Virus record (IMG/VR): IMGVR_UViG_3300047409_000726
Location: 16,265 to 80,264 of that record
DNA from: a virus
Reading direction: 5' to 3' (one strand)
Length of the DNA: 64,000 nt
A program made the translations under genes and the position numbers. Of this stretch, positions 46,977 through 63,014 are shown one piece after another (position 1 is the stretch's first letter; each line of letters begins with the position of its first letter). The notes under the pieces were generated by a model. That model searched no databases. It was given only the letters and a program-made list of their open reading frames with translations, and was not told the DNA's origin.

Positions 46977-47627
46977 GTGCGCGTCATAGACCTCACTGGG
47001 CAACGGTTCGGGAGACTTCGCGTTCTCGGGCGAGTCGGTAGTCTACGAGGCGCGTTGTGGGAATGTTTATGCGATCCGGAATTTGGTGGTTGCGGCAACG
47101 TTACGCACGTTTGTTCCGGTGACCTTCGACGCAAACGTCCTGTGCGTTCGTGCGGTTGCAATAGAGGAGGGTACGGAAGATTTTCCGCCACTCATGGGCA
47201 TACGGTGGGAGAGCTTCGACTACACGGCGGATCTCCTGAGTATTGTTGTTGGCAATCGATGCTCCAACGGTGCAAAAACAAAAAAGCCCCAAGCTGGCGG
47301 CTGTACGGAGGGCGCGGTATTCGTGTTCACCAGGCTTGGATAGAAAGTTTTGAAGCGTTCTTGGAGTACATGGGCCCGAGACCGTCGATCGCATATTCTG
47401 TAGATCGGTTTCCGAACCAGAACGGAAACTACGAACCAGGGAACGTGAGATGGGCTACCGCGAAGCAGCAAGGGCGCAATACACGCTCTTGCAAACTAAC
47501 CGAAACGGACGCGGCTTTCGTTCGGCACTGGTGTGCTAGAGGATTCAGGGTCAAAGACATATCTGAAGCGTTCGGCGTTACCACGTCAACCATATCTGCG
47601 GTCAAATCTGGGAAAACTTGGGCATGA
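46977..47627 (+). CDS. HNH-type homing endonuclease-like protein
   Basis: 216 aa, GTG start. GQRFGRLRVLGRV and WECLCDPEFGGCGNVTHVCS are a NUMOD/AP2-like DNA-binding lead. YGGRGIRVHQAWIESFEAFL, YSVDRFPNQNGNYEPGNVRW and ATAKQQGRN are the nuclease core. A C-terminal HTH (VKDISEAFGVTTSTISAVKS) aids site choice. Free-standing mobile gene inserted into the structural operon; its stop overlaps the next ATG. Confidence 0.85.
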   Translation: MRVIDLTGQRFGRLRVLGRVGSLRGALWECLCDPEFGGCGNVTHVCSGDLRRKRPVRSCGCNRGGYGRFSATHGHTVGELRLHGGSPEYCCWQSMLQRCKNKKAPSWRLYGGRGIRVHQAWIESFEAFLEYMGPRPSIAYSVDRFPNQNGNYEPGNVRWATAKQQGRNTRSCKLTETDAAFVRHWCARGFRVKDISEAFGVTTSTISAVKSGKTWA

Positions 47628-48442
47628 AAACCCATACTGTTCAAGCAAATGAAACACCCGCGTCGATTGCAATTTTTTACGCCGGGTGCCCAAAATGTTC
47701 AGCGGATCTCATCAAATCGAATCCGCACAAAGAGTCGATCACGCACCCCAACGGGTACAAAACCTTCTCGTCGTTGTTAGCCGGAGAAAAACTGAACCTT
47801 CCGGAAAAATGGAGCAACGGAGAGTTAGATCGTCGTCCGCCGGTGTACTTCGCGGCATTGCCGTACCACGACGGCGTGACACCTTCGACGCTCGGTGATG
47901 CCGCGGCTGGTGTACTCGCCGACTACGCGACCATCGACGCGATCGTCGCTCAGATCGGTGCACTGCCGCAGATGAACGATCAGGAGTTCGCGACGACCGC
48001 GACGCTCCTCGGCAACATGATCGATCAAGCGGTCACGCAAGCTGGCTCGGTACCTCAAGCACAAGACGCTGGTGCCGCCGCAGAATGGGTGCGAGGACGC
48101 GCGCTCCAGATGGCAGGATCAATCATCAACAACGACACGGCTGCCGTCGCCGAAGCACGATCAGAGATCCAGAACGTGCTGCTCACCGGGCTGGACAATG
48201 CGCGCGGAGCGCTTCAAACGTACTACGCGCAGGTCACTCCGGCGCCTGCGCCAGCGCCGACACCGCATGCGGCGCCGCGTCCGTCGCCGCCGGATCTGCT
48301 TCCGACGCCAACGCCGCCGGCTCCTACGCCCGAACCTGGCCTCAGCACAGGCGATATGTTCGGGTACGGATTGCTCGTTGCGAGCGTCGCGGGCGGAACG
48401 ATCTACCTTGCCACTCGTCCGAGGCGTCGGAGACGTCGATGA
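47624..48442 (+). CDS. LysM-like virion protein with LSTG-TM-polyArg end
   Basis: 272 aa, ATG 47624 (ATGA overlap). Residues 1-65 look LysM-like (THTVQANETPASIAIFYAGC, LLAGEKLNLPEKW). Helical middle (residues about 90-195), Pro/Ala linker, then LSTGDMFGYGLLVASVAGGT, the transmembrane helix, and YLATRPRRRRRR at the C-terminus. First of four proteins with this terminal signal. Probably binds peptidoglycan while anchored in a membrane by its end. Confidence 0.75.
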   Translation: MKTHTVQANETPASIAIFYAGCPKCSADLIKSNPHKESITHPNGYKTFSSLLAGEKLNLPEKWSNGELDRRPPVYFAALPYHDGVTPSTLGDAAAGVLADYATIDAIVAQIGALPQMNDQEFATTATLLGNMIDQAVTQAGSVPQAQDAGAAAEWVRGRALQMAGSIINNDTAAVAEARSEIQNVLLTGLDNARGALQTYYAQVTPAPAPAPTPHAAPRPSPPDLLPTPTPPAPTPEPGLSTGDMFGYGLLVASVAGGTIYLATRPRRRRRR

Positions 48443-50082
48443 TCCAGGACAAGCCTGCGCCGAACGTTCAGACGGATGTGCGTCCTCATCCTGGTGGCAA
48501 GAAGGGCGCGAAACTTTCGCTCGAGGAGGTCGGCAAGCGCGCATGGGCCGCGCGCATGAGCCCGAGGCTTCGTGCGTGGGCGACGCAGGTGCTCGACAAG
48601 GCCGGCGTTTCGCGCGGCACGCGAAGGCAAAAAGCAAAAGCGATCCTCGATGAGTATCGCGCGAAAGTTCCGTACATCGCCGATCCAGTGATGGGCGAGT
48701 TCATCGCGCATCCGGACCAAACACTCTGTCTCGACGAAGCGGGGCTCTGCATCGTGGGCGGCGACTGTTTTCCGGAGGGGACGTTGCTACTGCGGGACGA
48801 TTTCGAATTCGTACCGATCGAGCAGATCAAAAAAGGAGATCGCATCTGGGGGAAGGACAAATGGTCGATCGTCACCGAAAAATGGGCGAAAGGTAAGTTG
48901 CCCGTCGACGCCATCGAACTGTCCACCGGATCGACGATGTATCTGACGCACAATCACAAAGTCTACGTGGGCGCGTGTGAACACGGACGAGGATGCAATT
49001 TGGATCGGTGTTCATACGCCAACAAGCGGAACGTGTTCGATAGAATTTACGTTGAAGACCTGCGCGAAGAAGACGTGCTGCTTCAACCGGAACGCATTTC
49101 GTTCGGCGTCCAAGAAACAGATCCAGACCGCATGTATGTGGAAGCGCTCGCCCTGGCCGACGGTTGGACGAAAGCCAGCAAAAATCCGGATCTGCCTCAC
49201 ATTTGTTTCTACGTCGCGGGCCGAGACGGAATGCGCAAAGAGGCGCAAAAACACGAAGTCGTCAAAATCTGCGAACGATTGGGGATCGAGACGTTGTGGC
49301 ATCCACGATACGTCGTCGTGAAAGATCGAGAGTGGGCGTCGAAAATCGCGGAACTAGGGTCTCGAGCGCGGTTCAAACACCTAGAGACGATCAATTTGAA
49401 CGAGCCTGCGGCCAAAGCTGCGTTGCGCGGCCTAATGGCCGACAGCACGGCGAACACTTCCGGAAGTGCGCGCACGTACTCAACGACTAGCCGAATGATG
49501 ATGCTTCAGGTGCGCGTGCTTCATCGAATGTTCGGCAAGATGACGAGCGTCCGTATGTTGACCCCGGAACAACACGGAGGCGCGGGGAAATTTCCGCTTT
49601 GGCGCGTCGGACAACGAGAAAAGCAAGGACTCTCTGTTGTGGTCCGTTCGATCGAAAGAGCTGTGCGAGAAGTTCCGTGCTGGGACATCTCCACGGATGA
49701 TCACTACATCTACTTGCCTGAACACGACGTAACGGTTTCGAATTGCGACGACGCCGCAGTTACGATTTCGGCGGCAGTGATGTCGATCGGAATTCCTGCG
49801 AAGATCGTAGGGAGCTCGCACCGACCGCCCGCCGACGTGCCGACGCACGTGTACATGGCGTTCGAAGATGATCTCGGTGAGTGGGTTCGCATGGACGGGA
49901 CGACGCGGCTTCCTGTCGGAAAGGCGCCACCGAGACTCCGCGAGTGGTGGATCGAGCCAGGCAAAGACGCGAAAGCGAAAGGCGAAGGGGACTTCGTCGG
50001 GATGAGTGGCACGCTCGAGGGACCGTCATCACGGCACGCGACGATTCGCCTTGCCGATCTGCTCTATCCGACGATTCGCTAG
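48439..50082 (+). CDS. Transglutaminase-like enzyme interrupted by an intein
   Basis: 547 aa, ATGA overlap. N-extein residues 1-109 (basic start, YIADPVMGEFIAHPDQTLCL, IVGGD). Intein residues 110-435. C-extein 436-547 begins CDDAAVTISAAVMSIGIPAK, then PTHVYMAF (H470) and WVRMDGTT (D486), giving the Cys-His-Asp triad of phage transglutaminase-like proteins. Splicing would join GGD to CDD and so create the active site; the mature protein would be 221 aa. Possible capsid cross-linking or peptidoglycan/amide chemistry. Confidence 0.88.
   Translation: MIQDKPAPNVQTDVRPHPGGKKGAKLSLEEVGKRAWAARMSPRLRAWATQVLDKAGVSRGTRRQKAKAILDEYRAKVPYIADPVMGEFIAHPDQTLCLDEAGLCIVGGDCFPEGTLLLRDDFEFVPIEQIKKGDRIWGKDKWSIVTEKWAKGKLPVDAIELSTGSTMYLTHNHKVYVGACEHGRGCNLDRCSYANKRNVFDRIYVEDLREEDVLLQPERISFGVQETDPDRMYVEALALADGWTKASKNPDLPHICFYVAGRDGMRKEAQKHEVVKICERLGIETLWHPRYVVVKDREWASKIAELGSRARFKHLETINLNEPAAKAALRGLMADSTANTSGSARTYSTTSRMMMLQVRVLHRMFGKMTSVRMLTPEQHGGAGKFPLWRVGQREKQGLSVVVRSIERAVREVPCWDISTDDHYIYLPEHDVTVSNCDDAAVTISAAVMSIGIPAKIVGSSHRPPADVPTHVYMAFEDDLGEWVRMDGTTRLPVGKAPPRLREWWIEPGKDAKAKGEGDFVGMSGTLEGPSSRHATIRLADLLYPTIR
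48766..49743 (+). mobile_element. Intein with degenerate LAGLIDADG endonuclease
   Basis: 326 codons, Cys1 (CFPEGTLLL) to Asn326 (TVSN) with Cys+1. Block A: CFPEGT...VPIEQIKKGDRIWG. Block B: STGSTMYLTHNHKVYV (TxxH). LAGLIDADG-like blocks YVEALALADGWT and LRGLMADSTANTSG, then SRMMMLQVRVLHRMFG. Block F: CWDISTDDHYIYLPEHDVTV. The penultimate residue is Ser instead of His, a tolerated variant in some inteins. The insertion point is the catalytic cysteine of the host enzyme. Confidence 0.9.
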
Positions 50083-50338
50083 TGACCGAAAGTGCACCTG
50101 TGGGGTGCCCCGACGGTGGCCCGTGCATGTTAGCGATCACGTGACTCGACACCGTGCGCGAATGCGCTGATCGTCGCTTCATGGATCTCAGCTAACTGAT
50201 TGGTTTGGTTACCGTTTCATATTGCGCGACCGATCACACGTCAGAGGAGCGCGCGGCAACATAACCACTCGCTCGCGCGAGTCCACTTTTCGTTTTCTTG
50301 ACCTGCCAAACGCGCATTGAAACTCTTGAGAGCGCACC
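50083..50338. other. Intergenic region before the basic protein gene
   Basis: 256 bp. A 20-codon ORF (GTG 50082 to TGA 50144, MTESAPVGCPDGGPCM...) overlaps the stop of the transglutaminase by one base and may or may not be made. TTGACC at 50298-50303 is a possible -35 with no convincing -10. Otherwise nothing recognisable. Confidence 0.35.
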
Positions 50339-52030
50339 GTGGGTCTTTATGACGATCGATTGGCCGACCTCAGTGAAGCGCGACGAAACACGTCGCGTGT
50401 CCGTCGATCGATCTTTCCGAGACCTTTCACGCGCCCCGCGCCGGTCGCCGCTCCAAAAAAGCGAAAGCCGAAGAAGCCTCCTACGAAGGTGCAGACGCTC
50501 CTCTTCAGCCGCAGCGCAGGTTGGACGGCGAGCAAAGCCAAGGCGTGGGCAAAGTCCCACGGCTACAAGTACGGGAAGGTGCACGTCACCGACCAGTACA
50601 TCCGCATTCGTCAATTCAGCCCGAAAGGGAAAGCGACGATGCGGACCATCCCGTTCGGTACGAAAGGCATCCGTGCCGTAGTTGCACGAGAAAGTACGAG
50701 CACAAGAGGTCCCATGGCACGAACTGTTCAAGCACGTAGGCGTCGGCGTCGGAAGGTCAAAGCAGAGGCACCGAAGCGTAGGCGACGGCGTCGGGCGAGC
50801 TCGCGCAAGCGCACGAGCCGTCGTAGGCGTCGGCGTGCAGTGAAGGTCGAAGCGAAGAGGACTCGTCGGCGTCGTCGTGTCGCCGCCGTCGCGGCTCCGC
50901 GTCGCAGGCGTCGCCGTCGCGTGTCGGCGTGGCGTCGCGACAAGGAAGGCCACTCGAAGGCGGCCCGCAAGGGTTGGCGTCGGCGCAAGAAGAGCTCGAC
51001 TCGTCGGCGTCGCCGTCGGGTGCGCGCAGCCGTGGCCGAGGCGCCGCGTAGGCGAAGGCGTCGCCGTGTCGCGGCAGCAGTCGCTACTCCGCGCAGGCGT
51101 CGTCGACGTCGGATGCACGCGGCTCCCGTGATGCAAGCGCGTCGGCGTCGGCACCACATGCGTGCGAGCGGTCCCGGAATGAGCGGCGGCGAGCTCGCGC
51201 TCGGCGTGCTCTTCGGCGGCGTCGGCTTCGCCGCTGCGGACGCACTCGATCGCTTCCTCGCGACGTACGACCCGTCGGCCGCCGAACGTCCGAAGGACAA
51301 GTTCACGTCGGACGGCACGGGAACTTTGGCGAATACTCTGAACGTTGCGAATCGTCCGGGCCTAGTCCGTCTCGGAGCCGGCATCGGCGTGACCGCGGTT
51401 CCCGCGATCTCGTCGATGTACATCCGGCACGCGGGACTCAGGAGTTCGCTCCAGGGCATGTCGATCGGTGCAGGCGTCAGCCTGTTCAAGTCGATCTGGA
51501 ACAACTTCCTGATGCCGATGCTCATCGGCAAGGATACGTCGCCGACGACTTTGCAGAAGTCGTACATCGCACGGCTCTACCCGGCCGAGGTTGCTGCATC
51601 GATCAACATGCGTGCAATCGACGCAGCGAAGAAGGCAGGGCAGACGCCAGCGATGAACGTGTCCTCGGGATCTTCGGGTCTCTCGGGTCCGGACGTCGGT
51701 CCGCACGCGCTCTCGGGCGACAGCCCGTACCCCGACGCGGTGCAATCGCTTCGTCGGCGCGCGGGCGTCAGCGACGAGATGTACCCCGACGCGGCATCGG
51801 AGCTTCGGCGCAGGACCGGCATGAGCGGCCCGTCGAGCTACCCGGACGCGGCGGACGTGCTCCGTCGTCGTGCGGGCGTCGGATACGAACCCGCGGGTCC
51901 GCCCGAAGGCGGCACCGGGCCGCAGGCGGAACCCCACAAGGATCCCGCGTGCGGCTGCGTCGGAACTCCCGGCGCTCGGTACGCGATGTTCCTTGGCGAC
52001 GACATGAGCGAGTCAGACAACACCGGCTGA
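50339..52030 (+). CDS. Protamine-like arginine-rich membrane virion protein
   Basis: 563 aa, GTG start. Residues about 45-115 form a small domain, FSRSAGWTASKAKAWAKSHG, DQYIRIRQFSPKGKATMRTI, GIRAVVAR, similar to one found in phage head or protease proteins. Residues 125-275 consist of about ten blocks of RRRRRR separated by Ala/Val linkers, protamine- or H1-like. Residues 280-450 include hydrophobic helices (GELALGVLFGGVGFAAADAL, LVRLGAGIGVTAVPAISS). The C-terminal repeats SYPDAADVLRRRAGV occur three times. Likely condenses genome DNA at a membrane or capsid surface. Confidence 0.78.
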   Translation: MGLYDDRLADLSEARRNTSRVRRSIFPRPFTRPAPVAAPKKRKPKKPPTKVQTLLFSRSAGWTASKAKAWAKSHGYKYGKVHVTDQYIRIRQFSPKGKATMRTIPFGTKGIRAVVARESTSTRGPMARTVQARRRRRRKVKAEAPKRRRRRRASSRKRTSRRRRRRAVKVEAKRTRRRRRVAAVAAPRRRRRRRVSAWRRDKEGHSKAARKGWRRRKKSSTRRRRRRVRAAVAEAPRRRRRRRVAAAVATPRRRRRRRMHAAPVMQARRRRHHMRASGPGMSGGELALGVLFGGVGFAAADALDRFLATYDPSAAERPKDKFTSDGTGTLANTLNVANRPGLVRLGAGIGVTAVPAISSMYIRHAGLRSSLQGMSIGAGVSLFKSIWNNFLMPMLIGKDTSPTTLQKSYIARLYPAEVAASINMRAIDAAKKAGQTPAMNVSSGSSGLSGPDVGPHALSGDSPYPDAVQSLRRRAGVSDEMYPDAASELRRRTGMSGPSSYPDAADVLRRRAGVGYEPAGPPEGGTGPQAEPHKDPACGCVGTPGARYAMFLGDDMSESDNTG

Positions 52031-52044
52031 GCACCACAGCCGTA

Positions 52045-52084
52045 CACCTCGCCCCGGTAGGCTTCGAGCCCCGGGGTTGAGGTG
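52045..52084 (+). terminator. Long three-part hairpin upstream of the capsid-candidate gene
   Basis: CACCTC-G-CCCCGG-TA-GGCT-TCG-AGCC-CCGGGG-TT-GAGGTG forms a nearly continuous stem. No T tract follows, so it may be an RNA-processing or stability element rather than a terminator; the next gene has its own strong ribosome site. Confidence 0.55.
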
Positions 52085-52144
52085 TCAGAAGGTTCCGCGT
52101 CGGCCCAATGAAACCGGTGGAACTACACAGGAGAAAAGTTTTCC

Positions 52145-53431
52145 ATGGCCAAGCAAGCAAGAGACAAGAGAAGCATTCTCGGGCGCAAGATTCACGCTTT
52201 CGAACGAGACAACCGGTACGCACGTCTGCCATTCGGTCGCGGTGTCGATCCGACCACCATCGGTGTCGGTGAAGCAATCGGACTCGCCGAGAAGTGCATT
52301 CGATGCAGCTTCGGCAACATCCCCGTGATCGAAGAGGTCGTGTGGACGATCCCCATCCCGCTCACGGCGGAAGAGGCGCTCTCGACCCTCGGTGACGTGA
52401 TCAACCTGCTCTCGGGTTCCTCGAGCGTCCCCGGCGTCGCGTCGATCGACTCGACGTTCCTCATCAACGGCATCCTCCAGACGGACATCCTCGCGCAAGG
52501 CGTGGGCGTGCACGTGTTCTGCGAGCCGCTGTCGTTCTCGACGATCGGCAACGCCTTCACGGCGCCTGCCACGACCGTCGCGCCGCCCCCGAGCCCGGAC
52601 GTCTTCACGACGAACGATCTCGCGAACGGTGCGTTCCCGGATACGGTCGAAGTGGACGGTTCGAACTTCACCCCGGCGGTGTTCGAGTTCGGCGGCCCGG
52701 TGTGGCGCGCGGGCTGGAACTTCATCAACGCCTACCAGTTCCAGTGGAAGACCTCGCAGCGTGAACTCGTGCTGAACGAGCTCGCGGCGGACGTCAGCTA
52801 CTTCGGCTCCTTCGCGGACGCCGAAGCGGCGGGCACGAGCGAGGTTCCCGTCATCGAGTTCGTCGCTCAGGTCAATGCGACCTACCGCTCGAAGGGCTCC
52901 GGGACGATCTTCCTCCCGGCGAACTTCCGCCGCGTGGGAAGCGTTACCACCGCAAGCGTAACCGCAAACATCGGCATCTTCCACCCGACGCGCGATTTCG
53001 ATCTCGCGCCGGTGACCTGGGGCGGTCTCAGGTGGCAGGGCTACGGTTGCCGCGGTCAGATGTACCGCCCGATCGAGAGCCCGTGCTTCCTCGAGCGCGG
53101 CATCCCCATCGGCATGTTCTTCCAGGTGCAAGACGCCGTGCACCAGGCGCTCATGCTCGAAGCCGTCACGATCAACAACGAGCCTCTCGGCACGAACGTC
53201 AGCATCGACGAGAACCTCTCGACCACGACTGGCGGCGGCGCCCAGGTCATGGCCGAGCAGACACTCGACACGGTTCCGCTACTCGCGCCGCAAACCGTCA
53301 ACACCGAGCGTCAGACCTTCAAGGGCGGCATCTTGAAGATCGGCATCAAGATCAAGGGCTGGGAAATGCCCGGCGGCTGGAAGGCGTTCTGCGCCGACAA
53401 CCTGCCGCAGCTCGTTTCGAAGTCTGCCTGA
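52145..53431 (+). CDS. Major virion protein candidate (428 aa, beta-rich)
   Basis: ATG 52145 with ACAGGAGAAAAG. Basic N-terminus (MAKQARDKRSILGRKIHAFE), then an all-beta body with VIEEVVWTIPIPLTAEEALS, WRAGWNFINAYQFQWKTSQR, FVAQVNATYRSKGSGTIFLP, PTRDFDLAPVTWGGLRWQGY, IKIKGWEMPGGW. No HK97 features. Flanked by two strong hairpins with its own ribosome site, as expected for a highly made protein. Best capsid candidate; jelly-roll or spike are the alternatives. Confidence 0.6.
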   Translation: MAKQARDKRSILGRKIHAFERDNRYARLPFGRGVDPTTIGVGEAIGLAEKCIRCSFGNIPVIEEVVWTIPIPLTAEEALSTLGDVINLLSGSSSVPGVASIDSTFLINGILQTDILAQGVGVHVFCEPLSFSTIGNAFTAPATTVAPPPSPDVFTTNDLANGAFPDTVEVDGSNFTPAVFEFGGPVWRAGWNFINAYQFQWKTSQRELVLNELAADVSYFGSFADAEAAGTSEVPVIEFVAQVNATYRSKGSGTIFLPANFRRVGSVTTASVTANIGIFHPTRDFDLAPVTWGGLRWQGYGCRGQMYRPIESPCFLERGIPIGMFFQVQDAVHQALMLEAVTINNEPLGTNVSIDENLSTTTGGGAQVMAEQTLDTVPLLAPQTVNTERQTFKGGILKIGIKIKGWEMPGGWKAFCADNLPQLVSKSA

Positions 53432-53457
53432 TCGAAAAAACGGTCGGTGTAAAGCAG

Positions 53458-53500
53458 CCAGCGGCGTGGCGAAACCAAACGCCGCGCCGCTGGTCGCGTT
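53458..53500 (+). terminator. Strong terminator-like hairpin
   Basis: 14-bp stem CCAGCGGCGTGGCG (53458-53471) / CGCCGCGCCGCTGG (53480-53493) with one mismatch-type pair, 8-nt A-rich loop, then TCGCGTTTT. Probably sets the ratio between the two capsid-type genes. Confidence 0.75.
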
Positions 53501-53531
53501 TTAGGCGAACGAATTTAGGAGAAACGAGCCA

Positions 53532-54137
53532 ATGCAACCGAAGGATCAACAAATCCACAATTTGGCTTTGTACGCGCCCCGGGTAGCTTACGCCATGATG
53601 ATCGGCGTACCCCGCGTGCCGTTCATCGCGGACATCCCGATCCAGTTCTCGTCATCGACGGTGAACGCGCCGCCGGTGGTGCAGAGCTTCGACAACAACC
53701 TCACCCAGGACACGCTGATCGAGCGAGTCTCGTTCAACCTGTTCCAGCAGAACAGCTTCCCGGGAAGCCCCTTCCAGCCTCTCTACTTCAACCAGTTGAA
53801 GCAAAGCGGGCAGACCGGCGTCGGCATCAACATGCAGGTCTACGGAGGCCCGAAGTACGCCGTCAACGACAACTTCACCGACCTCGGAAACCTCATCGAC
53901 GTGTTCGCTGCGACGTGGCCACAGGGATGGCCGCTCTACCGTCAGTCGAACGTGAAGGTCTCCGCGATCCTCACGCAAACACCGGTGAGCGTGCCGTACA
54001 ACATCCTCATCACGTTCATGGGATTCCAGTTCCTAGACAAAACGATAGACGATCTCTCGGACGCCGACGCGCGAGCCAACCTGCGAAAACTCGGCATCAG
54101 CACACCGGATCTCAGCGTGCTTCTCCCGCAGGCTTGA
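53532..54137 (+). CDS. Virion protein candidate (201 aa)
   Basis: Strong TTTAGGAGAAACGAGCCA ribosome site. Beta-rich: AYAMMIGVPRVPFIADIPIQ, SFNLFQQNSFPGSPFQPLYF, QVYGGPKYAVNDNFTDLGNL, NVKVSAILTQTPVSVPYNIL. Next to the 428-aa protein and about half its size, like the small/large capsid pairs of some membrane-containing viruses; could equally be a decoration protein. Confidence 0.6.
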   Translation: MQPKDQQIHNLALYAPRVAYAMMIGVPRVPFIADIPIQFSSSTVNAPPVVQSFDNNLTQDTLIERVSFNLFQQNSFPGSPFQPLYFNQLKQSGQTGVGINMQVYGGPKYAVNDNFTDLGNLIDVFAATWPQGWPLYRQSNVKVSAILTQTPVSVPYNILITFMGFQFLDKTIDDLSDADARANLRKLGISTPDLSVLLPQA

Positions 54138-54150
54138 TCCGCACCACAAA

Positions 54151-55047
54151 ATGGGCGCCAAAACCGACAACGTAATCCGACTCCAAAAACACCCAGACGG
54201 TGTCGCGGCTGGGGTGCGTTCGGTTCTGAACTCGGGTCGATACGAGCTCGTTACAGGAGGGCCGAACGCCGAGTTCGGTTTCATCGGGAGCGACCCTTAC
54301 GAGACCAACTCCGGAACCGGTCTCATCGTCCCCGCGACGCCCAGCGCCTGGATCGACAACGCCCGCTACCTCCTGGTGCTCGCTCGGGCTCGATTCGGTC
54401 ACGGTGAGCAGAGCTCGGACAAGTGCGGCGTGCGCCTCGTCGGCATTCGACAGTACGCCGAGCTCATCGCACGGATCCCTGCGCGTACGTGCCCGCCGCT
54501 GAACACCGAAGTGGGCCCCGCTACCGGTGCGACCGTCGTTTTCCGCAAAGAGATCACGAGCCCGCTCTGGCACTTTCCAGACGGTGACATCTCCTGGCAC
54601 GTGATGGTCGTGAACCGCGTGCAGCGCGACACGCGAAACCCGGCGAACAACGACGGCTTCATTTACCAAGACGCGATCTCGCCGGCACTCCTCTACCAAG
54701 TCGCGGCGCCGTACTCGCCCCCGAACGGCGGGCGTCCTTGGGGGCGTCCCATCGGCGCGTCGCTCGGCAACATGCACGATCTTCGCTACCCGTGGCGCAC
54801 CCCGCGGAGTGAGCGAGTACTCGACATCCCGATCCCCGCGCCGTGCGATGTCATCTTTTTCGCGAGCGTTCGCCAGAACGATCCGCGGGCGACGAATCCG
54901 ACGCTTTGCGACACCGTCGACTGCTCGGCACTCACAGCGCTCGGTCCCGAAGATCAGTTCATGGTCGCGTACAACGAGTTCGCTCAGTACGGCGCCGTCG
55001 CGGGGGCACTCGTGTTCGACGAGAACCTGGGAGAGGACGTGCCATGA
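54151..55047 (+). CDS. Virion protein candidate (298 aa)
   Basis: Beta-rich, no known domain: GTGLIVPATPSAWIDNARYL, VVFRKEITSPLWHFPDGDIS, WHVMVVNRVQRDTRN, ERVLDIPIPAPCDVIFFASV. Six cysteines. Starts 13 bp after the 201-aa gene and is followed by coupled membrane-protein genes. Possible penton, vertex or spike-base protein. Confidence 0.62.
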   Translation: MGAKTDNVIRLQKHPDGVAAGVRSVLNSGRYELVTGGPNAEFGFIGSDPYETNSGTGLIVPATPSAWIDNARYLLVLARARFGHGEQSSDKCGVRLVGIRQYAELIARIPARTCPPLNTEVGPATGATVVFRKEITSPLWHFPDGDISWHVMVVNRVQRDTRNPANNDGFIYQDAISPALLYQVAAPYSPPNGGRPWGRPIGASLGNMHDLRYPWRTPRSERVLDIPIPAPCDVIFFASVRQNDPRATNPTLCDTVDCSALTALGPEDQFMVAYNEFAQYGAVAGALVFDENLGEDVP

Positions 55048-55286
55048 GCACGCGCCTCGGAGTAGGGCTGGCGGCTGGACTCGGTTGCGCCGCGGGGGGT
55101 GTGATCGGCATTGTTGCCGGCCCCGCTATCTCGCCGAATATGACCAAGGACGATGCCGCGATCGCCGCGGGAGCGATCGGCGCAATTCTCGGCTCCGTGA
55201 TCCTGGCGACGGTGGCGGCGAGCGATCCGCCGAAGCAGATACAGACCGGCGTGAGCGGTGCGTTTCACAACCCGGAGTTCCCATGA
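55044..55286 (+). CDS. Gly-zipper two-TM protein ending HNPEFP (80 aa)
   Basis: ATGA overlap. GVGLAAGLGCAAGGVIGIVA and AAIAAGAIGAILGSVILATV are Gly/Ala-rich helices; C-terminus TGVSGAFHNPEFP. Tandem paralogue of 55283-55525. Likely a virion membrane protein or pore. Confidence 0.72.
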   Translation: MSTRLGVGLAAGLGCAAGGVIGIVAGPAISPNMTKDDAAIAAGAIGAILGSVILATVAASDPPKQIQTGVSGAFHNPEFP

Positions 55287-55525
55287 TCAACAACGGCCTC
55301 ACCATGATCGCGCTCGCCGGCATCGGCGGCATGATTCCTGGTGCCATCGGCGCGGCCGCCGCCGAAGGAAATCACCCGGTGCTGAGAGGCGCTCTCGTGA
55401 CGGGGATCGCCAACGTTGTTTTGACCGGTCTCTACATCGTTGCGGTCAACACCGCAGACCAGGAGCGGCTCACACAAGGGATGAACGGTCTCTCAGGCGC
55501 TCTCCACAACCCGAGGTTTCCATGA
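55283..55525 (+). CDS. Gly-zipper two-TM protein ending HNPRFP (80 aa)
   Basis: ATGA overlap. GLTMIALAGIGGMIPGAIGA and GALVTGIANVVLTGLYIVAV; C-terminus NGLSGALHNPRFP. Same length, topology and end as the preceding gene, hence a tandem duplication. Confidence 0.72.
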   Translation: MINNGLTMIALAGIGGMIPGAIGAAAAEGNHPVLRGALVTGIANVVLTGLYIVAVNTADQERLTQGMNGLSGALHNPRFP

Positions 55526-55944
55526 TGGCACTAGCCTTCAATGGATTTTCTCTCGGAGAAGATCAGCAAACGTTTCAGGCCGGCGATGTTTGGGTGATTG
55601 ATGTCACGTCCGACAAGCCCGTCACGCCTGAGCAATTTTTCGCTTTTGTCGCGAAGGTTCAGCCCAAAGCGAGTATGCCGATCAAAGTCTTGTCGTTCAT
55701 GCCGATCGATCAGACTCACTTTCAAGCGGTCGTGCAGATGCAATCGACAGGATCTTTCAAAGGCGCCGGTCACACGGATATGGTCGATGGTGTTGTGTTC
55801 ACTGTCACGTCTGCGCACCCGCAATCGGAGACAAGCAAAGGTCTTTCAACCGGCGCAATAGCCGGAATCGTCGCCGCAGGTGCAGCCGCTTTTGGCGGCA
55901 TCGTCTACCTCGCAACTCGCAAACCTAGGAGACGACATCCATGA
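55522..55944 (+). CDS. Virion-type protein with LSTG-TM-basic end (140 aa)
   Basis: ATGA overlap. An alpha/beta N-domain of about 100 aa (FQAGDVWVIDVTSDKPVTPE, HFQAVVQMQSTGSFKGAG), then LSTGAIAGIVAAGAAAFGGI as transmembrane helix and VYLATRKPRRRHP. Shares the terminal signal with 47624, 55941 and 56688. Confidence 0.72.
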   Translation: MMALAFNGFSLGEDQQTFQAGDVWVIDVTSDKPVTPEQFFAFVAKVQPKASMPIKVLSFMPIDQTHFQAVVQMQSTGSFKGAGHTDMVDGVVFTVTSAHPQSETSKGLSTGAIAGIVAAGAAAFGGIVYLATRKPRRRHP

Positions 55945-56660
55945 CCCCAGCGCAAGCAAGCGGACACCCGAATTTCGTCACGGACGTTCCTGTTCAAGGT
56001 CCGGTCGACGAAGGCATGCGCGCGGCGGATTGTTTTCACGCTCAACGAAAGCTACCGGCGCAGCCCGCGTGCGTCGATTGCAAAGGACCAATTCCAATGT
56101 GGGCTCAGCATTCACTCTCGGCAACTTCATCCGGCGCACGCGGCCCCTACTCCGGGATCGGCGAGCGACTCTCGTTCGGCACCGCGGGTGTGAAAGGCTT
56201 CGCTCTCGAAGGCCCAGGCGATCCAGAAGTTTGGAGCCACCTCTCGGCGGCGCAACAGACGTGGATCGGGGACACGCTCTCGAAGCTGAACGGAATCATC
56301 GTGAAGGCCACCGGCACGACGTGCCCGACGTGGGCTCCCGCGATCGATCGCGCGAGCGGTTGCTTTCAGGGTTGGTTCAACGGCGCCAAGTTCGGATTCA
56401 CGAAGGCGAACGGCGCGCCGCTCGTGCTTCGTACCGACGGCGTGTTCGACCAAGACACGCTCGACGCGCTTCGCACCGTCGCAGCGCTGAACCCCAAGAA
56501 CTTTACGACGGCGTTCCCAGGGACCGAGCTACCTGGCACGGGCGTGACTCAGAAGAAGCTTTCCACCGGCGCAATAGCCGGCATCGCGACGGCCGGCGCC
56601 GCGGCGATCGGCACGGTCGCGTACCTCGCCACTCGCAAGAAGAGCCGGAGACGCCGCTAA
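55941..56660 (+). CDS. Peptidoglycan-binding-like protein with LSTG-TM-basic end (239 aa)
   Basis: ATGA overlap. Residues about 60-200 carry WSHLSAAQQTWIGDTLSKLN and LRTDGVFDQDTLDALRTVAA, a PG_binding_1-like unit (DG.f...T..Al). Then LSTGAIAGIATAGAAAIGTV as transmembrane helix and AYLATRKKSRRRR. Probably engages the cell wall during entry while anchored at its end. Confidence 0.74.
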   Translation: MTPAQASGHPNFVTDVPVQGPVDEGMRAADCFHAQRKLPAQPACVDCKGPIPMWAQHSLSATSSGARGPYSGIGERLSFGTAGVKGFALEGPGDPEVWSHLSAAQQTWIGDTLSKLNGIIVKATGTTCPTWAPAIDRASGCFQGWFNGAKFGFTKANGAPLVLRTDGVFDQDTLDALRTVAALNPKNFTTAFPGTELPGTGVTQKKLSTGAIAGIATAGAAAIGTVAYLATRKKSRRRR

Positions 56661-56687
56661 GACCGCAACTCGTAGGAGACGACGAAG

Positions 56688-58247
56688 ATGCTGTATCGAG
56701 TGAAAACCGGCGAGACCCCCGCGATCATCGCGCGCACGTACGGCGTGCCGTTCGATGCACTCATCAACGCCAACCCGAGGAAGCCAACGACCATCGTTTC
56801 CAACGGACGCGGCCCTGTCCGTACTTGGCGGGAGCTTTTGGTGAACGAGGAGATCATCGTTCCGGTTGGCGGACTCGTTGGCGCTCCCGCAGACGACGTC
56901 GTGAGCATTCTCGTTTCGGCGGGCGGTCCGTGTCTCAAAGCAAACGCGGGCTACGTCTGCCAGATCCAGAGCATCCTCGGGCTCAAGGTCGACGGAAAGT
57001 GGGGAAACGACACCGCGGCTGCGGTTCGCGCTCTCGTACCGGGCGCGCCAGGCGCGTGCTCTCCGACGCCGAGCTGGTGGGTGAGAGGTGTGAGCGCATG
57101 TCCCGCGGGCGCCGTCGCTCCGTCGCCCGCGCCTGCTCCGTCGTCCGGCCTCTCCTCGGCGGCAAACGCGGCGCTCGCTGCGCTCAACGCGGATTCGAAC
57201 TACTGCGCAAGCGTCTCGAGAGTCGGATCGGCCGTCAACAGCGCTATCCACAACTTCAAAGCGGCGTGGAACGCTTCGCATCCGTCAACTCCTGTTCCGA
57301 TCGGCACCGGCAAGTACGAGCCGTCCGTTGCAGATGCGCTCTCGACAGCGCTCGGCGGGCTTCCCGTGCCCCCCGGTTGCGGCGCCACGCCTGCGCCTTC
57401 GCCGACTCCGATCGTCACGCCAACACCGACGCCCGCTCCGCGCGGAGCCGTTCCGTCCGCCGTGCTCGCGCTCCTAGGAATCAATCCGTGCGATCCGTCA
57501 AGCGCATCGGACGTGTGCGCGGCTCAGCGCGCGCTCGGTGTGTCTCCAGACGGAAAGTACGGAGTGGACACGGCGACAGCCGCACGTCGAGTGCTCCCGG
57601 AAGCGCCCCCTGGGTGCTCGCCTCGCCCCTCGTGGTGGGCGCCAAAGGGCCAAACGAATTGCGGAGGCGCAGCCGTACCTCCGCCGCAACCGGCACCGAT
57701 CCCGCCGCCGGCTCCGACACCTGGGCCCGCGCCCACGCCGTCACCTACAGCAGCGGCCCCGGCAGCCGTCTTGATGCTCGCCACGATCAATCCCTGCTTG
57801 CAGGCGAACGTCGAAGTGGTCCGGAACGCGCAACGCGCGCTCGGTCTCACACCGGATGGCAAGTACGGAAACGATACGATGAGCGCCGCTCGCCGGCTCG
57901 GCGTGAGTGTGCCGGCGGCTTGTAGCCCCGCGCCCATGTGGTGGGGCGCGAAGGGTGTACCAGCGCCGCCCGGACCGCCGGCACCTGTTCCGGGTCCGAC
58001 GCCAGGCCCTTCTCCGGCACCGGGTCCGATCGTCCAGACAGAGAAGAAGATCTCGACTGGCGCAATCGTCGCGGGCGCGATCGGCGTCGCGGCGCTCGTC
58101 GGGCTTACCGTCGTCGCACTGTCCGGCAAGAAGAAGCATCACCGCCGTACGCGCAAAGGCGCGCACAGGCCGAAGCGGAAATCGCACGGGCATCACCACA
58201 AGCCGCATCACAAGGCCCATCGCAAATCGAAACGGAGAAGCAGATGA
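56688..58247 (+). CDS. LysM plus triple peptidoglycan-binding protein with TM and His/Lys/Arg tail
   Basis: 519 aa. LysM (LYRVKTGETPAIIARTYGVP, 1-60). Three PG_binding_1-like units, ILGLKVDGKWGNDTAAAVRA, ALGVSPDGKYGVDTATAARR and ALGLTPDGKYGNDTMSAARR, each followed by CSPxPxWW, joined by Pro/Ala linkers. Then ISTGAIVAGAIGVAALVGLT as transmembrane helix and a 45-residue tail of Lys, His and Arg. A membrane-anchored wall-binding protein; the tail may touch nucleic acid. Confidence 0.82.
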   Translation: MLYRVKTGETPAIIARTYGVPFDALINANPRKPTTIVSNGRGPVRTWRELLVNEEIIVPVGGLVGAPADDVVSILVSAGGPCLKANAGYVCQIQSILGLKVDGKWGNDTAAAVRALVPGAPGACSPTPSWWVRGVSACPAGAVAPSPAPAPSSGLSSAANAALAALNADSNYCASVSRVGSAVNSAIHNFKAAWNASHPSTPVPIGTGKYEPSVADALSTALGGLPVPPGCGATPAPSPTPIVTPTPTPAPRGAVPSAVLALLGINPCDPSSASDVCAAQRALGVSPDGKYGVDTATAARRVLPEAPPGCSPRPSWWAPKGQTNCGGAAVPPPQPAPIPPPAPTPGPAPTPSPTAAAPAAVLMLATINPCLQANVEVVRNAQRALGLTPDGKYGNDTMSAARRLGVSVPAACSPAPMWWGAKGVPAPPGPPAPVPGPTPGPSPAPGPIVQTEKKISTGAIVAGAIGVAALVGLTVVALSGKKKHHRRTRKGAHRPKRKSHGHHHKPHHKAHRKSKRRSR

Positions 58248-58774
58248 CCGAATTCGTTGGACGCGGACCGGGCGGACGCCCCTACTCTTACGTGGAAACA
58301 CCGAAGGGCGGCGGCTTGGGGGCGCTCGCGCGAAACTTCGCTGTAGGACCGGCAGAAGGTACCGCCGTAACTACCGGCGGCGTCCAAATCCCCTGGGGTA
58401 CGACGGACGTGCCCGGATTCACTTTCGCGGACGTACCGATCACCCCGAGGGTCTCTGGAATCGTTCGCGTTACTGCTGTGGTTTGCGTCGCGAACAGTAC
58501 ATCAAACCCGGCCACGCTTATCGTCGAAGTCCAAGTAGACGGAGTGACACAAATTCGACCTCTGCACGAAGAGGTCACAGTGCCGTTCACCAACGGTGGC
58601 GAAGAAACTAGCGGGTTCGCAGCGGTTCCAATCGAGACCGAGATTCTCGGGTTAGTGCTGGGAACCGCAGTGAACATACAAATCAAAGTAACGGCGCTCA
58701 CAGCCGACGCTCTCACGCTAACCACGAACAACTCGTCGATCGAAGTACAGGAAGTGCTCCCCTCAACCGGCTGA
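58244..58774 (+). CDS. Tagged jelly-roll-like surface protein A (176 aa)
   Basis: ATGA overlap. Tag MTEFVGRGPGGRPYSYVETP, then LARNFAVGP, TTGGVQIPW and a beta-sandwich body (VPITPRVSGIVRVTAVVCVA, VNIQIKVTALTADALTLTTN). Paralogue of 59036 and 59547. Likely trimeric surface knob or fibre. Confidence 0.72.
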   Translation: MTEFVGRGPGGRPYSYVETPKGGGLGALARNFAVGPAEGTAVTTGGVQIPWGTTDVPGFTFADVPITPRVSGIVRVTAVVCVANSTSNPATLIVEVQVDGVTQIRPLHEEVTVPFTNGGEETSGFAAVPIETEILGLVLGTAVNIQIKVTALTADALTLTTNNSSIEVQEVLPSTG

Positions 58775-58785
58775 AGAGAATCAAA

Positions 58786-59034
58786 ATGCAGGTCGTCATC
58801 CCGAAAGAAAAGCTCGAGGCTCTCAAAGCCTGCGACGCTTACATCAAATCACCGGAGTGGAACGGCGAAGCGCTCGTCTACTCCGACTGGGACGCGACGG
58901 TGCGACGTCTGATGTCTACCGGACCTGGGATCACCTTTCTCGGATATCTGGTCAAGAACGAGCTCGTGCCGATGACCAAGGAAGAGTTCAGGCAGGCGCG
59001 AGTGACGCACATTTTCAAGAACGAGGAGCGCTAA
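58786..59034 (+). CDS. Small protein between tagged paralogues (82 aa)
   Basis: Helical (KEKLEALKACDAYIKSPEWN, VRRLMSTGPGITFLGYLVKN). Unknown; possibly a chaperone for the neighbouring surface proteins. Its stop is adjacent to ATG 59036. Confidence 0.62.
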   Translation: MQVVIPKEKLEALKACDAYIKSPEWNGEALVYSDWDATVRRLMSTGPGITFLGYLVKNELVPMTKEEFRQARVTHIFKNEER

Positions 59035-59035
59035 C

Positions 59036-59542
59036 ATGGGCGAGTTCAGAATCGGACGCAGGTTCGCACAGCACACCTACCCCGACACACCAAGAGGGGG
59101 AGGGGCGCTGGCGTTCGCGCGAAACTTCGCGATGGGTCCGGCTACGCCCACCACCATCACGACCGGCGGCGTTCAGGTTCCGTGGGATTTCATCGAAAGC
59201 GGTGCCCCCTCCGGCGTCAACGTGCCGATCACACCGCGTGTCACCGGGCGAATGCTCTTCTCCGGCGTCGTTCAGGTCACGAACAACGACGACGCGCCTG
59301 TGACCGTACAGGTGCAGATTCAAGTGAACGATGCCACGGCACTCGTTCCACTTGTTCAAGAGACGGTCGACGCGAACGGCGAAGCAGCTATCGCTTTCGA
59401 GATTATGTACATCGCGTCGCTTCCGGTCGGCGTCACCGCTCAGATCCAATTACTGGTCACGTCTACAGCAGACGTCGACGTCGTTTTGAGCACGGACAAC
59501 TCAACGCTAGAAATCGAAGAAAAATCGTTCGCGACCGGGTGA
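59036..59542 (+). CDS. Tagged jelly-roll-like surface protein B (168 aa)
   Basis: Tag MGEFRIGRRFAQHTYPDTPR, LARNFAMGP-type segment (FARNFAMGP), TTGGVQVPWDFIESG, then VPITPRVTGRMLFSGVVQVT and STDNSTLEIEEKSF. Strongly similar to 59547-60059. Confidence 0.74.
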   Translation: MGEFRIGRRFAQHTYPDTPRGGGALAFARNFAMGPATPTTITTGGVQVPWDFIESGAPSGVNVPITPRVTGRMLFSGVVQVTNNDDAPVTVQVQIQVNDATALVPLVQETVDANGEAAIAFEIMYIASLPVGVTAQIQLLVTSTADVDVVLSTDNSTLEIEEKSFATG

Positions 59543-59546
59543 ACCC

Positions 59547-60059
59547 ATGGGTGAATTCAGAATCGGCCGCAAATACGCGCACCACTTCTACCCGGACACA
59601 CCACGGGGAGCGGGAGCGCTGTCGCTTGCGCGAAATTTCGCGATGGGCCCTGGGGATGCAACCGACGTCGTCACGTCCGGTGACGGTGGCACTCAGATCC
59701 CTTGGGATTTCATCGAGAGTGATGCCGCCCTAGGCGTCGACGCGCCGATCACCCCAAGAGTCACTGGGCAAATCCTTTTCAAAGGCGTGATCGTTTTCAA
59801 AAACAACTCACTGTCTCCGGTAAACGTGACGGCGCAAGTCGAGGTGAACGACTTGGCAATAGCGCCTCCGGTCGTTGAAGAGACAGTCGCAGCAAACGGG
59901 TTGGCCGCCGTACCTTTCGAAGTGCTCATCGATACCCCACTCGCCCTCGGCGTCACAGCGAACATACAAGTCATCGTGACCGCGTCGATAAACGATGCGA
60001 TCACGCTTACCGTGGACAGTTCGACCATCGAAATCGAAGAAGTTCCGTTTGCGGCGTGA
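59547..60059 (+). CDS. Tagged jelly-roll-like surface protein C (170 aa)
   Basis: Tag MGEFRIGRKYAHHFYPDTPR, LARNFAMGP, IPWDFIESD, then APITPRVTGQILFKGVIVFK and TVDSSTIEIEEVPF. Third of the paralogous set; duplicated tandem array of surface proteins. Confidence 0.74.
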   Translation: MGEFRIGRKYAHHFYPDTPRGAGALSLARNFAMGPGDATDVVTSGDGGTQIPWDFIESDAALGVDAPITPRVTGQILFKGVIVFKNNSLSPVNVTAQVEVNDLAIAPPVVEETVAANGLAAVPFEVLIDTPLALGVTANIQVIVTASINDAITLTVDSSTIEIEEVPFAA

Positions 60060-60077
60060 TGCAAAGGAAACTCGTCA

Positions 60078-60269
60078 ATGCCCAAGAAAATTCACCAGGA
60101 GACGATGTGCTGCGGTAGCAAGCGGTGTCCGACGGTGACGTTGTTCGATGACGGTTCGATGGAGATCTTCGACAACGACGCGCAGAAGAACTCCGTCGGA
60201 AACATCAAGCTCGACCCCGATCAAGTTTCGAGACTCGTCGAGCTTGCGAACAAAAAATCGGCAGAATGA
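60078..60269 (+). CDS. Small Cys-containing protein (63 aa)
   Basis: ETMCCGSKRCPTVTLFDDGS, then GNIKLDPDQVSRLVELANKK. Three cysteines near the start. Unknown. Confidence 0.63.
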   Translation: MPKKIHQETMCCGSKRCPTVTLFDDGSMEIFDNDAQKNSVGNIKLDPDQVSRLVELANKKSAE

Positions 60270-60272
60270 TCC

Positions 60273-60902
60273 ATGAAAACCACAGGCAGAAAATCGCAAG
60301 AGGTCTACCCGGAAAGATCACCCGGAGCTTCGGGATCTGGCGCGCTCGTACGCGTCGGTTACGACGGCACGACCGAAGAGTTCGAAATCGAATCGGGTAA
60401 CGCATACCTCCCGCGAAACGCCGCACTCGATCCGCTCCAGGTGACGTTCCCCTCGTTCACGCTCGGAGACACGCTCGAGGTCGATTTCAGGCTGAACGGC
60501 TCTGTTTCTGCAGAAGAGCCGACCACTGCTCAAATCAACACACAAATCGTGGTGAGTTTGGACGGCGGCGTGACGTTCTACACGCTCACGCCTTCGGACT
60601 CGGCGGTCGGCGTCACCACCGACAGCGGAGCAGACAACGTCATCCTTCTCAGAAGCCTCGATTCTATCCAGATCGTCAATCCAATGCCGGTCGTCGTGAA
60701 CGGCGTTCCGAGCACCATTCCGGTCACGTCTCCGCCCATCGTGCGTGTCATCTACCAGTACGCCGATGACACCATGGTCGTTTTGGTCAACGGCGGCACG
60801 GACGAGCTCACGCTACCGGGCGCTATTCTGAAGTGCAGCGAGCTCTTGGCTGCGTCCGTGTTCCAGGGCCCGCTCGGACAGCTCGCGATCGCCATCGCCT
60901 GA
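60273..60902 (+). CDS. Tagged beta-rich surface protein (209 aa)
   Basis: Diverged tag MKTTGRKSQEVYPERSPGAS, then beta-rich (LQVTFPSFTLGDTLEVDFRL, QIVVSLDGGVTFYTLTPSDS, AIVR-like strand IVRVIYQYADDTMVV). No known fold by eye. Confidence 0.68.
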   Translation: MKTTGRKSQEVYPERSPGASGSGALVRVGYDGTTEEFEIESGNAYLPRNAALDPLQVTFPSFTLGDTLEVDFRLNGSVSAEEPTTAQINTQIVVSLDGGVTFYTLTPSDSAVGVTTDSGADNVILLRSLDSIQIVNPMPVVVNGVPSTIPVTSPPIVRVIYQYADDTMVVLVNGGTDELTLPGAILKCSELLAASVFQGPLGQLAIAIA

Positions 60903-60913
60903 AAGGTCACCAA

Positions 60914-61477
60914 ATGAAACTCATCGGCAGAGGCAGATACGCGACAGAGGCTTACCCGGGAGGATCCTCGGCGGCGGGCGCCGCTTCAGCAGCGCTGCGC
61001 AACCGAAACGTCGCTCTTCCAGGCGCGCTTGCAGTTCCGTTCACGCCCACCAACGCTGTGCTCGCGGCCGTCTTGTTCACACCAAGCGTCAGCGGCGTCA
61101 TTCAAATAGCTGCCTCGGCTTTAGTGGAGAACGGAACAGACGCCGAAACCTACCTGATTGGCATGGAAGTGATACCAGGTACCGGGCTCACCGTTACAGG
61201 CGGCGACATGACCGTCGATGGCTGGGTAGTAGGTACCACATCAGCTCCGGTAGTAGGCGGCGTCACGGGATCGCCTGTGATGGCGCTAGAGGATTTAACG
61301 GCACCGCTCCTCAGTGGTGCAAGCGCAGCGCTGTCGGTATTCGGTATTTCCGACAACGTGTCTCCGTTGCCACTCGGGGTGCCTGTAGTGATCGTCGTCA
61401 TACTAGGCGAGGTTGGTAGCGGCCACGCGATAGCTCAACTTGCGGTTACGAACCTCTCGGTAATGGAACTCCCGTAA
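60914..61477 (+). CDS. Tagged beta-rich surface protein (187 aa)
   Basis: ATG 60914. Tag [19 protein letters not shown], then FTPSVSGVIQIAASALVENG, GVPVVIVVILGEVGSGHAIA and VTNLSVMELP. The V.FTPSVSG strand resembles PITPRVSG of the paralogues 58244-60059. Confidence 0.7.
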   Translation: MKLIGRGRYATEAYPGGSSAAGAASAALRNRNVALPGALAVPFTPTNAVLAAVLFTPSVSGVIQIAASALVENGTDAETYLIGMEVIPGTGLTVTGGDMTVDGWVVGTTSAPVVGGVTGSPVMALEDLTAPLLSGASAALSVFGISDNVSPLPLGVPVVIVVILGEVGSGHAIAQLAVTNLSVMELP

Positions 61478-61481
61478 GTAG

Positions 61482-61766
61482 ATGAATGACCTGCTCCTCA
61501 CTCTTGCCCTCATCGGCGCGACGCTCATCGTCACGCGCGGGACGATTTTTCGTCTACTTCGACGTATCTGGCCAGAGTTTCTCGAGTGCCCGCTCTGTGT
61601 CGGTTTCTGGATCGGCGCGGCAGCAGGCGGAAGCAGTGTCGTGTCGCTCGGCAACGGGAAAATTCTCGACGCCTTCATCGTCGGTTGCGCAACGAGTTTT
61701 CTCTCGATGCTCGCCAACGCTGTGTTGATCAAATTGCTCGACGACAACGAACCCGTCGGGCCGTAG
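61482..61766 (+). CDS. Small membrane protein of DUF1360-like type (94 aa)
   Basis: LLLTLALIGATLIVTRGTIF, ECPLCVGFWIGAAAGGSSVV and VGCATSFLSMLANAVLIKLL: three hydrophobic helices with the ECPxCxGFW signature known from small phage and Bacillus membrane proteins. Function unknown. Confidence 0.75.
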   Translation: MNDLLLTLALIGATLIVTRGTIFRLLRRIWPEFLECPLCVGFWIGAAAGGSSVVSLGNGKILDAFIVGCATSFLSMLANAVLIKLLDDNEPVGP

Positions 61767-61793
61767 ACCCCGAAAGAGGAAGAGAGACATCCC

Positions 61794-63014
61794 ATGGGTA
61801 ACGTTATAGGTAGAGGTCGATACGCGCGTGATACATACCCGGGACCCCCGGCAGCGCCCGCTACTGTCGACGACAGAATCGACGTGCTCACGGCGATTCT
61901 GGAACACAACGTACAGCTTCAAGGTGACGCCACGCAAGTGAGCGGCAGCGTCGTCGCGCTCGACTCGCCGCTTTACACGTTGGTCCCCGGGGTCACTGTC
62001 TTCCCGGGATCTCCGACCGTAGAAGTGACCGGAAGCATAACGGTGCACGGCACTCCTGGCTCGAACGTGCTCTTCGAGCTCGTGCGGGATCGCGGAAGTG
62101 AAGGAGAACTGGTACTCACGCATCAAGATGCCACGATCAGCGGCGCTGCTGGCGATCTGGCGACCATCACGCTCGTGTCGCTAGACGTAAACCTAGAAAA
62201 GGGCTCGACACACACGTGGTCCATACGCGCAACAGGTGCAGCGGCGATCACCTCTCCCGATCCGGCACTCATCCTGGTCGAACAAAAGCCGTCCGGAACC
62301 GCAGTCGTCATTCCTACCCCGCCAACACAAGCGGTTGAGCTGAACACAGCGGCCGACTTCGCTGCATTCGGCGGAACCGGCATCACGACGACGGGCGGCT
62401 CAAGCATCGACGGAGACATCGGCGTGAGTCCCGCCGTCACGTCCGCCGCCATCACGGGCTTCGCACTCGTGCTCGACGGCTCCGGGCAATTCTCTACGTC
62501 CTCGCAGGTGCACCCTAGCGTACCCACGGGACAGCTCGGACACGTATTCGCGTTCAACTACGCGGTGCCTACGCCCGCAAAGGTCAATCAGGCGAACCTC
62601 GACATGATCACGGCGTACAACGACGCCGCTGGGCGCCCTGCGGACACGACAGCGGCAGGCGGTGACATCAGCGCCGACTCGCCGCTCGCAGCAGGGGCGG
62701 TCTACCGCTACACCGGAGCGTCCAGCGTTACGGCAGGAGCTCTGACACTGAACGGCGGACCCACCGACGTCATCATCATTCAAGTGGCCGGTGCGCTCGA
62801 CATTCACCAAGACATTCTGCTCACGGGCGGATTGCTTCCAGAGAACGTCTTCTTCGTTGCGGCAGGACAGGTCACCATCTTCGGCGGCATCACGGTCAAC
62901 GGAGAGTTCTTGGGCCAAACCGGCATCGCCATGCAAGCAGGCACGACACTCAACGGTCGAGCACTCGCTCAGACCGCAGTCACGCTCATCAACAACACGA
63001 TCGTTGAGGCGTGA
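61794..63014 (+). CDS. Tagged surface protein with ice-binding-like (DUF3494) domain
   Basis: 406 aa. Tag MGNVIGRGRYARDTYPGPP, a beta sandwich (residues 25-175), then residues about 185-406 matching the DUF3494/IBP beta-solenoid: ELNTAADFAAFGGTGITTTG, SSIDGDIGVSPAVTSAAITG, ITAYNDAAGRP, AGALTLNGGPTDVIIIQVAG, PENVFFVAAGQVTIFGGITV, QAGTTLNGRALAQTAVTLIN. Known members bind ice or act as adhesins. Here it is probably a rigid receptor-binding or adhesive fibre. Confidence 0.83.
   Translation: MGNVIGRGRYARDTYPGPPAAPATVDDRIDVLTAILEHNVQLQGDATQVSGSVVALDSPLYTLVPGVTVFPGSPTVEVTGSITVHGTPGSNVLFELVRDRGSEGELVLTHQDATISGAAGDLATITLVSLDVNLEKGSTHTWSIRATGAAAITSPDPALILVEQKPSGTAVVIPTPPTQAVELNTAADFAAFGGTGITTTGGSSIDGDIGVSPAVTSAAITGFALVLDGSGQFSTSSQVHPSVPTGQLGHVFAFNYAVPTPAKVNQANLDMITAYNDAAGRPADTTAAGGDISADSPLAAGAVYRYTGASSVTAGALTLNGGPTDVIIIQVAGALDIHQDILLTGGLLPENVFFVAAGQVTIFGGITVNGEFLGQTGIAMQAGTTLNGRALAQTAVTLINNTIVEA

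Follow-up and report, generated by a model that had tools for sequence, protein, structure and literature searches.

The window examined here is a stretch of viral DNA of 64,000 nucleotides, comprising bases 16265–80264 of the 80,264-base IMG/VR record IMGVR_UViG_3300047409_000726. It contains a block of genes around candidate capsid genes, here termed the capsid module, and, on the opposite strand, a gene for a rhomboid intramembrane protease (table 1). Four proteins of the block (tail proteins 1–4) end in a C-terminal tail that consists of an [LI]STG motif, a Gly/Ala-rich hydrophobic helix and a cluster of basic residues; all four tails were found where a preliminary description of this DNA had placed them.

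Table 1. Features of the capsid module and the rhomboid locus (positions in the window).
Feature	Position	Strand	Basis
Rhomboid intramembrane protease, virus-encoded	25889–26434	−	Pfam Rhomboid (PF01694) 4e-19; both catalytic residues intact (serine of GASGA, histidine of H-x-G-G)
Tail protein 1, 274 aa: N-terminus LysM-like, then Pro-rich linker and LSTG-helix-RRRRRR end	47618/47624–48442	+	ORF; tail LSTGDMFGYGLLVASVAGGTIYLATRPRRRRRR at about 48341–48439
Transglutaminase-like enzyme, interrupted by Hint/intein-type domain	48439–50082	+	Pfam Transglut_core 5e-5; Hint 6.9e-4, below its cut-off
Polybasic protein, 563 aa: long Arg arrays, hydrophobic segment(s), conserved C-terminus	50339–52030	+	Predicted function
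Probable capsid protein, 428 aa	52145–53431	+	64–76% identical in 27 relatives
Probable jelly-roll capsid protein, 201 aa	53532–54137	+	AF2 model and PDB match
Conserved capsid-module protein, 298 aa	54151–55047	+	In 27/27 relatives
Tail protein 2, 140 aa: LSTG tail on an N-domain of unknown kind	55522–55944	+	ORF; tail LSTGAIAGIVAAGAAAFGGIVYLATRKPRRRHP at about 55843–55941
Tail protein 3, 239 aa: LSTG tail	55941–56660	+	ORF; tail LSTGAIAGIATAGAAAIGTVAYLATRKKSRRRR at about 56559–56657
Tail protein 4, 519 aa: LysM and PG_binding_1 repeats, ISTG tail	56688–58247	+	Pfam; tail ISTGAIVAGAIGVAALVGLTVVALSGKKKHHRR, then long K/H/R end, at about 58050–58244

The 428-aa gene retrieves 27 loci from IMG/VR, and the 201-aa and 298-aa genes retrieve the same records (about 27 each time); no deeper relatives emerged from IMG/VR scans with these three proteins. 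Gene order is kept in the relatives and runs from a Pro/Gln-rich protein through tail protein 1, the transglutaminase, the polybasic protein, the capsid candidate and the 201-aa and 298-aa proteins to tail protein 3 and, usually, tail protein 4. The N-domain of tail protein 1 is conserved in 22 relatives and tail protein 3 has homologues in 27/27, while tail protein 2 has a clear homologue outside its tail only in record L010. Neither the 428-aa protein nor the rhomboid matched the INPHARED phage collection, where tail protein 3 gave no match below E 0.1. GTDB genomes scanned with the capsid protein yielded no provirus and no host, and the GTDB scan with the rhomboid gave no host signal.

When one tail was used to search the whole record, exactly the four tail-protein loci were returned. 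The pattern [LIM]STG, uncharged helix and basic end occurs in 4 of 367 six-frame ORFs, compared with a mean of 0.001 in 2000 shuffles; it was drawn up after the tails had been seen and serves as a check, not as an independent discovery. The YLATR motif that had been described as shared is absent from tail protein 4. Tails 1, 2 and 3 resemble one another beyond composition (0–3 of 5000 block shuffles were as good), and tail 4 is weakly similar to the other three (26, 1256 and 45 of 5000). For proteins 2 and 3 the likeness extends to DNA, with 22/23 bases identical over the motif and 67/99 overall, which suggests that these two tails descend from a common source.

The tails are carried by unrelated N-domains, and this identifies the C-terminal end as a shared module. 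The preliminary description had labelled these N-domains LysM-like, PG_binding-like and unknown; within the window Pfam supports LysM (1.3e-4) and PG_binding_1 (2.6e-11) for tail protein 4 only, the LysM of tail protein 1 being called by eye. Tail protein 3 of the window has no peptidoglycan-binding match in Pfam, and one of its relatives (L016) contains a PG_binding_1 domain. The polybasic end of a relative of tail protein 4 weakly resembles histone-like HC2, below the cut-off.

The module is real and family-wide. A tail profile, the check that the preliminary description had proposed, matched all 25 family records searched (IMG/VR, 29–125 kb), mostly in or near the capsid module with a few weak matches elsewhere, and the motif is enriched relative to shuffles; ten of the family genomes supplied part of the profile, so that strong matches in them arise by construction, and the long rhomboid-free genomes, L010 excepted, lie outside its training set. 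The same profile found nothing in 25 other rhomboid-bearing viral records. Relatives retain the tail without strictly retaining LSTG, and the variants (LSVG, LSRG, LSFG and GIGF) are found mainly in protein 1. Additional tail proteins are encoded by some rhomboid-free members; one of these has a Pro-rich N-domain and the clade-specific tail LSTLAKVGIG, which differs from the LSTG tail and is common to two unrelated proteins of that clade. Identities are modest on average: 0.49 for tails 1 and 3, which are paralogues, inside the rhomboid-bearing clade, and 0.37–0.42 for orthologous tails compared across clades.

These comparisons bear on the idea that the tails converged on a generic helix-capped Gly/Ala transmembrane segment and constitute no module with a common partner. 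Such convergence would fit the drift of motif positions, the lack of likeness beyond composition between tails 2 and 4, and a weak match of one viral tail to the transmembrane end of Giardia surface proteins (VSP; PF03302, 2.5e-4, below cut-off), as expected of a generic helix-start motif. It is decidedly improbable given the mutual likeness of tails 1–3, the near-identical motif bases of proteins 2 and 3, and the LSTLAKVGIG tail on two unrelated proteins.

The capsid module gives some indication of the type of virus. The AF2 model of the 201-aa protein (pLDDT 83.8, pTM 0.77) has as its best PDB match the SPV1 capsid protein 6oj0_A, with a probability of 0.97 and an E value of 2.6e-3, which is above 0.001; weaker matches include the jelly rolls of the STIV turret and the FLiP capsid. 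TM-scores are low throughout, and unrelated proteins, furin for one, are interspersed among these matches. The model is suggestive of kinship with the jelly-roll capsid protein of SPV1, a virus in which a protein shell covers a lipid layer, i.e. an internal membrane (PMC8459092). The model of the 428-aa candidate (pLDDT 34) is too poor to assign a fold, and PDB searches with profiles of the three capsid-module proteins returned nothing useful. The polybasic protein is possibly a DNA-condensing or membrane protein of the virion. In the transglutaminase-like gene, the Hint/intein-type insertion sits at the region of the catalytic cysteine; the gene is similarly long in L007, L010 and L029 and short in most other relatives.

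No terminase, portal or tail PHROG families were detected in the subset of ORFs scanned. A Walker A motif scan of the record itself and three near-complete relatives found no packaging ATPase of the FtsK type, the motifs present lying only in helicase-like or unlikely ORFs; the record itself and L007, L026 and L030 (80–118 kb) have no recognisable packaging ATPase or terminase. The Odin group and FLiP likewise lack a packaging ATPase (PMC5894146). Taken together with the jelly-roll match, these absences make a tailless, membrane-containing virus likely. A capsid region that is probably tailless and membrane-associated agrees with part of the interpretation given in the preliminary description.

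In each of the four proteins the tail segment is the only candidate transmembrane helix, with an apparent dG of −0.06 to +1.57 compared with at least +3.1 elsewhere, as calculated with our own implementation of a published scale; in tail protein 1, for example, the helix scores +0.90 and the next best segment +3.90. The helices are only marginally hydrophobic. No second hydrophobic segment resembling a signal peptide was seen in any of the four in the hydrophobicity scan, so that tail-anchor insertion would leave the basic end outside. The positive-inside rule disfavours passage of a strongly basic C-terminus across the inner membrane of a bacterium, and an outside-facing basic end would be awkward for the long K/H/R end of protein 4. 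For the opposite topology, the N-domain would have to be exported with no signal peptide to direct it. In PRD1-like assembly, a patch of the host cytoplasmic membrane pinches off and is coated by capsid proteins (PMC6356626). By analogy, such a tail would point into the lumen, towards the genome, which is what the preliminary description had guessed.

We favour the reading, with a probability of roughly 0.55, that the tail is a family-wide, virion-specific membrane anchor for peptidoglycan-binding entry proteins. It draws on the family-wide occurrence of the tail, its status as the only transmembrane candidate, the peptidoglycan-binding domains of protein 4 and of a protein 3 relative, the suggestive jelly-roll match of the 201-aa neighbour, the lack of terminase, portal and tail families in the ORFs scanned, and the Gly-rich transmembrane segments beside Arg in virion-region proteins of the membrane phage P23-77. 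The tail proteins would be synthesized without a signal peptide, and the LSTG-capped Gly/Ala helix (G-x-x-x-G) would insert into membrane taken up beneath the probable jelly-roll capsid. On one face of that membrane the basic end may bind phospholipid head groups or the genome; on the other, the N-domains would be displayed towards capsid and vertices, so placed that their LysM and PG_binding modules could engage peptidoglycan at entry. In this reading the membrane of the virion, the presence of the tail proteins in it, their topology and their part in entry are predictions. If correct, the anchor would show how cell-wall-binding proteins come to be placed in the particle of an uncultivated, apparently tailless family whose records reach 125 kb.

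The same domains would also suit proteins that act in the envelope of the infected host, as peptidoglycan-binding membrane anchors for lysis, egress or superinfection exclusion. A GH25 lysozyme is encoded elsewhere in the genome, and a neighbouring 168-aa protein has a weak holin PHROG match (0.0064). This role appears unlikely, however: in relatives the tail genes belong to the conserved block that surrounds the candidate capsid genes, the four proteins showed no muralytic domain, and they have no signal peptide with which to reach the periplasm.

The virus-encoded rhomboid is a new observation, missed by the preliminary description. It is present in 11 of 26 family records, and its catalytic residues are invariant in 11 aligned viral copies. 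All 25 close viral rhomboid loci (40–72% identity) belong either to family members or to contigs that carry family genes, while none of the bacterial homologues found exceeds 39% identity; on these identities the viral rhomboids form a clade specific to this family. Contigs behind L111–L115, L119, L120, L122, L123, L125, L127 and L131–L134 have rhomboid-region genes in common with the family; capsid and tail profiles gave no match in those of them that were searched, and they are probably fragments.

Possession of a rhomboid makes an analogy with rhombosortase testable. The tail could be a virus-encoded sorting signal, cut near LSTG by the virus's own rhomboid so that the N-domain is freed or re-anchored, as rhombosortase acts on GlyGly-CTERM proteins. 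The protease appears catalytically intact and family-specific, and LSTG tracks it: the motif is present in proteins 3/4, the two main tail proteins, of 11/11 rhomboid-positive genomes and 1/8 rhomboid-negative ones (Fisher p 1.6e-4, uncorrected for phylogeny). LSTG was scored by eye in records of unknown completeness; L024 was scored as absent since its MSTG is in protein 1, and L011 and L016 were counted as rhomboid-positive through longer records of apparently the same virus (L012 and L026). Because the genomes share ancestry, the Fisher test was rejected as proof of a link. The tree implies four changes of rhomboid state, but its supported branches yield only two independent contrasts, which either both agree or include one tie, according to how L010 is treated; with two contrasts the sign test gives p 0.5 and significance is out of reach. 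One example is L029, which lies inside the rhomboid-positive clade: the usual neighbour ORF of the rhomboid is present (weak, E 2.6e-4) with no rhomboid beside it, and LSTG is lost in all three tails.

Cleavage by the rhomboid is nevertheless doubtful as the purpose of the tail. Tails persist in rhomboid-free members, L010 (possibly truncated) has LSTG and no rhomboid, and the tails of protein 1 stray from LSTG in rhomboid-positive genomes. There is also no signal peptide to bring a cleavage site to the periplasmic side. The fuller proposal, that the virus runs a C-terminal sorting system of its own in which a dedicated virus-encoded rhomboid recognises and cuts LSTG-helix-Arg tags on several virion-region proteins, is similarly doubtful, if anything slightly more so, and with only two independent contrasts is best treated as a hypothesis. 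With tail and rhomboid paired in one virus, simple co-expression would allow a direct test of whether a viral sorting protease is at work.

Known C-terminal tags offer a further comparison. In the GlyGly-CTERM and rhombosortase system, a C-terminus of motif, helix and basic residues is carried by several proteins per genome alongside a rhomboid, and co-distribution links the two (PMC3237569, PMC13393428). The viral tails share this layout, including a rhomboid in the same genome. They differ in that the motif is LSTG, not Gly/Ser-rich, and in the absence of the N-terminal signal peptides that GlyGly-CTERM proteins possess (PMC3237569). The GlyGly-CTERM model TIGR03501 had no match in the four proteins at E values up to 1, and the viral rhomboid scored 19.4 against the rhombosortase model TIGR03902, far under its cut-off of 84. 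MYXO-CTERM, which acts with myxosortase, is likewise a tripartite C-terminal tag (PMC11980579), and like it the viral tag is found on unrelated proteins; unlike it, the LSTG tails have no invariant cysteine, and the MYXO-CTERM model (TIGR03901) matched none of the four. Identification of the tails as GlyGly-CTERM or MYXO-CTERM was therefore rejected: no model matches, no segment resembles a signal peptide and the motif drifts. On the same grounds, the cleaved form of the sorting tag considered in the preliminary description is a hypothesis.

The probable jelly-roll gene beside the tail genes invites comparison with internal-membrane viruses (PRD1, PM2, P23-77 and SPV1), some of which encode LysM or GH25 proteins (PMC5894146). 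In the membrane phage P23-77, the virion-region proteins VP20, VP22, VP23 and ORF31 have single Gly-rich transmembrane segments beside Arg, much like the viral tails with their adjacent basic residues, although these segments are N-terminal where the tails are C-terminal. Profile comparison with the P23-77 capsid proteins VP16/VP17 gave no match; these comparisons used single sequences and have low power. Many family records span 60–125 kb, compared with about 17–20 kb for P23-77 and SPV1, and the context points to unusually large jelly-roll-type prokaryotic viruses.

Further genes of note were observed in the window. At 58249–63014, several proteins whose bodies differ have in common an N-terminal motif such as MGEFRIGR or GRGRYA..YPG, which may be a second module shared among surface proteins; the final one (61794–63014) ends in an Ice_binding-like domain. 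A small ORF on the minus strand (42161–42352), with a hydrophobic stretch and a KRKRRR end, has a similar counterpart in L014 and may encode another small membrane protein.
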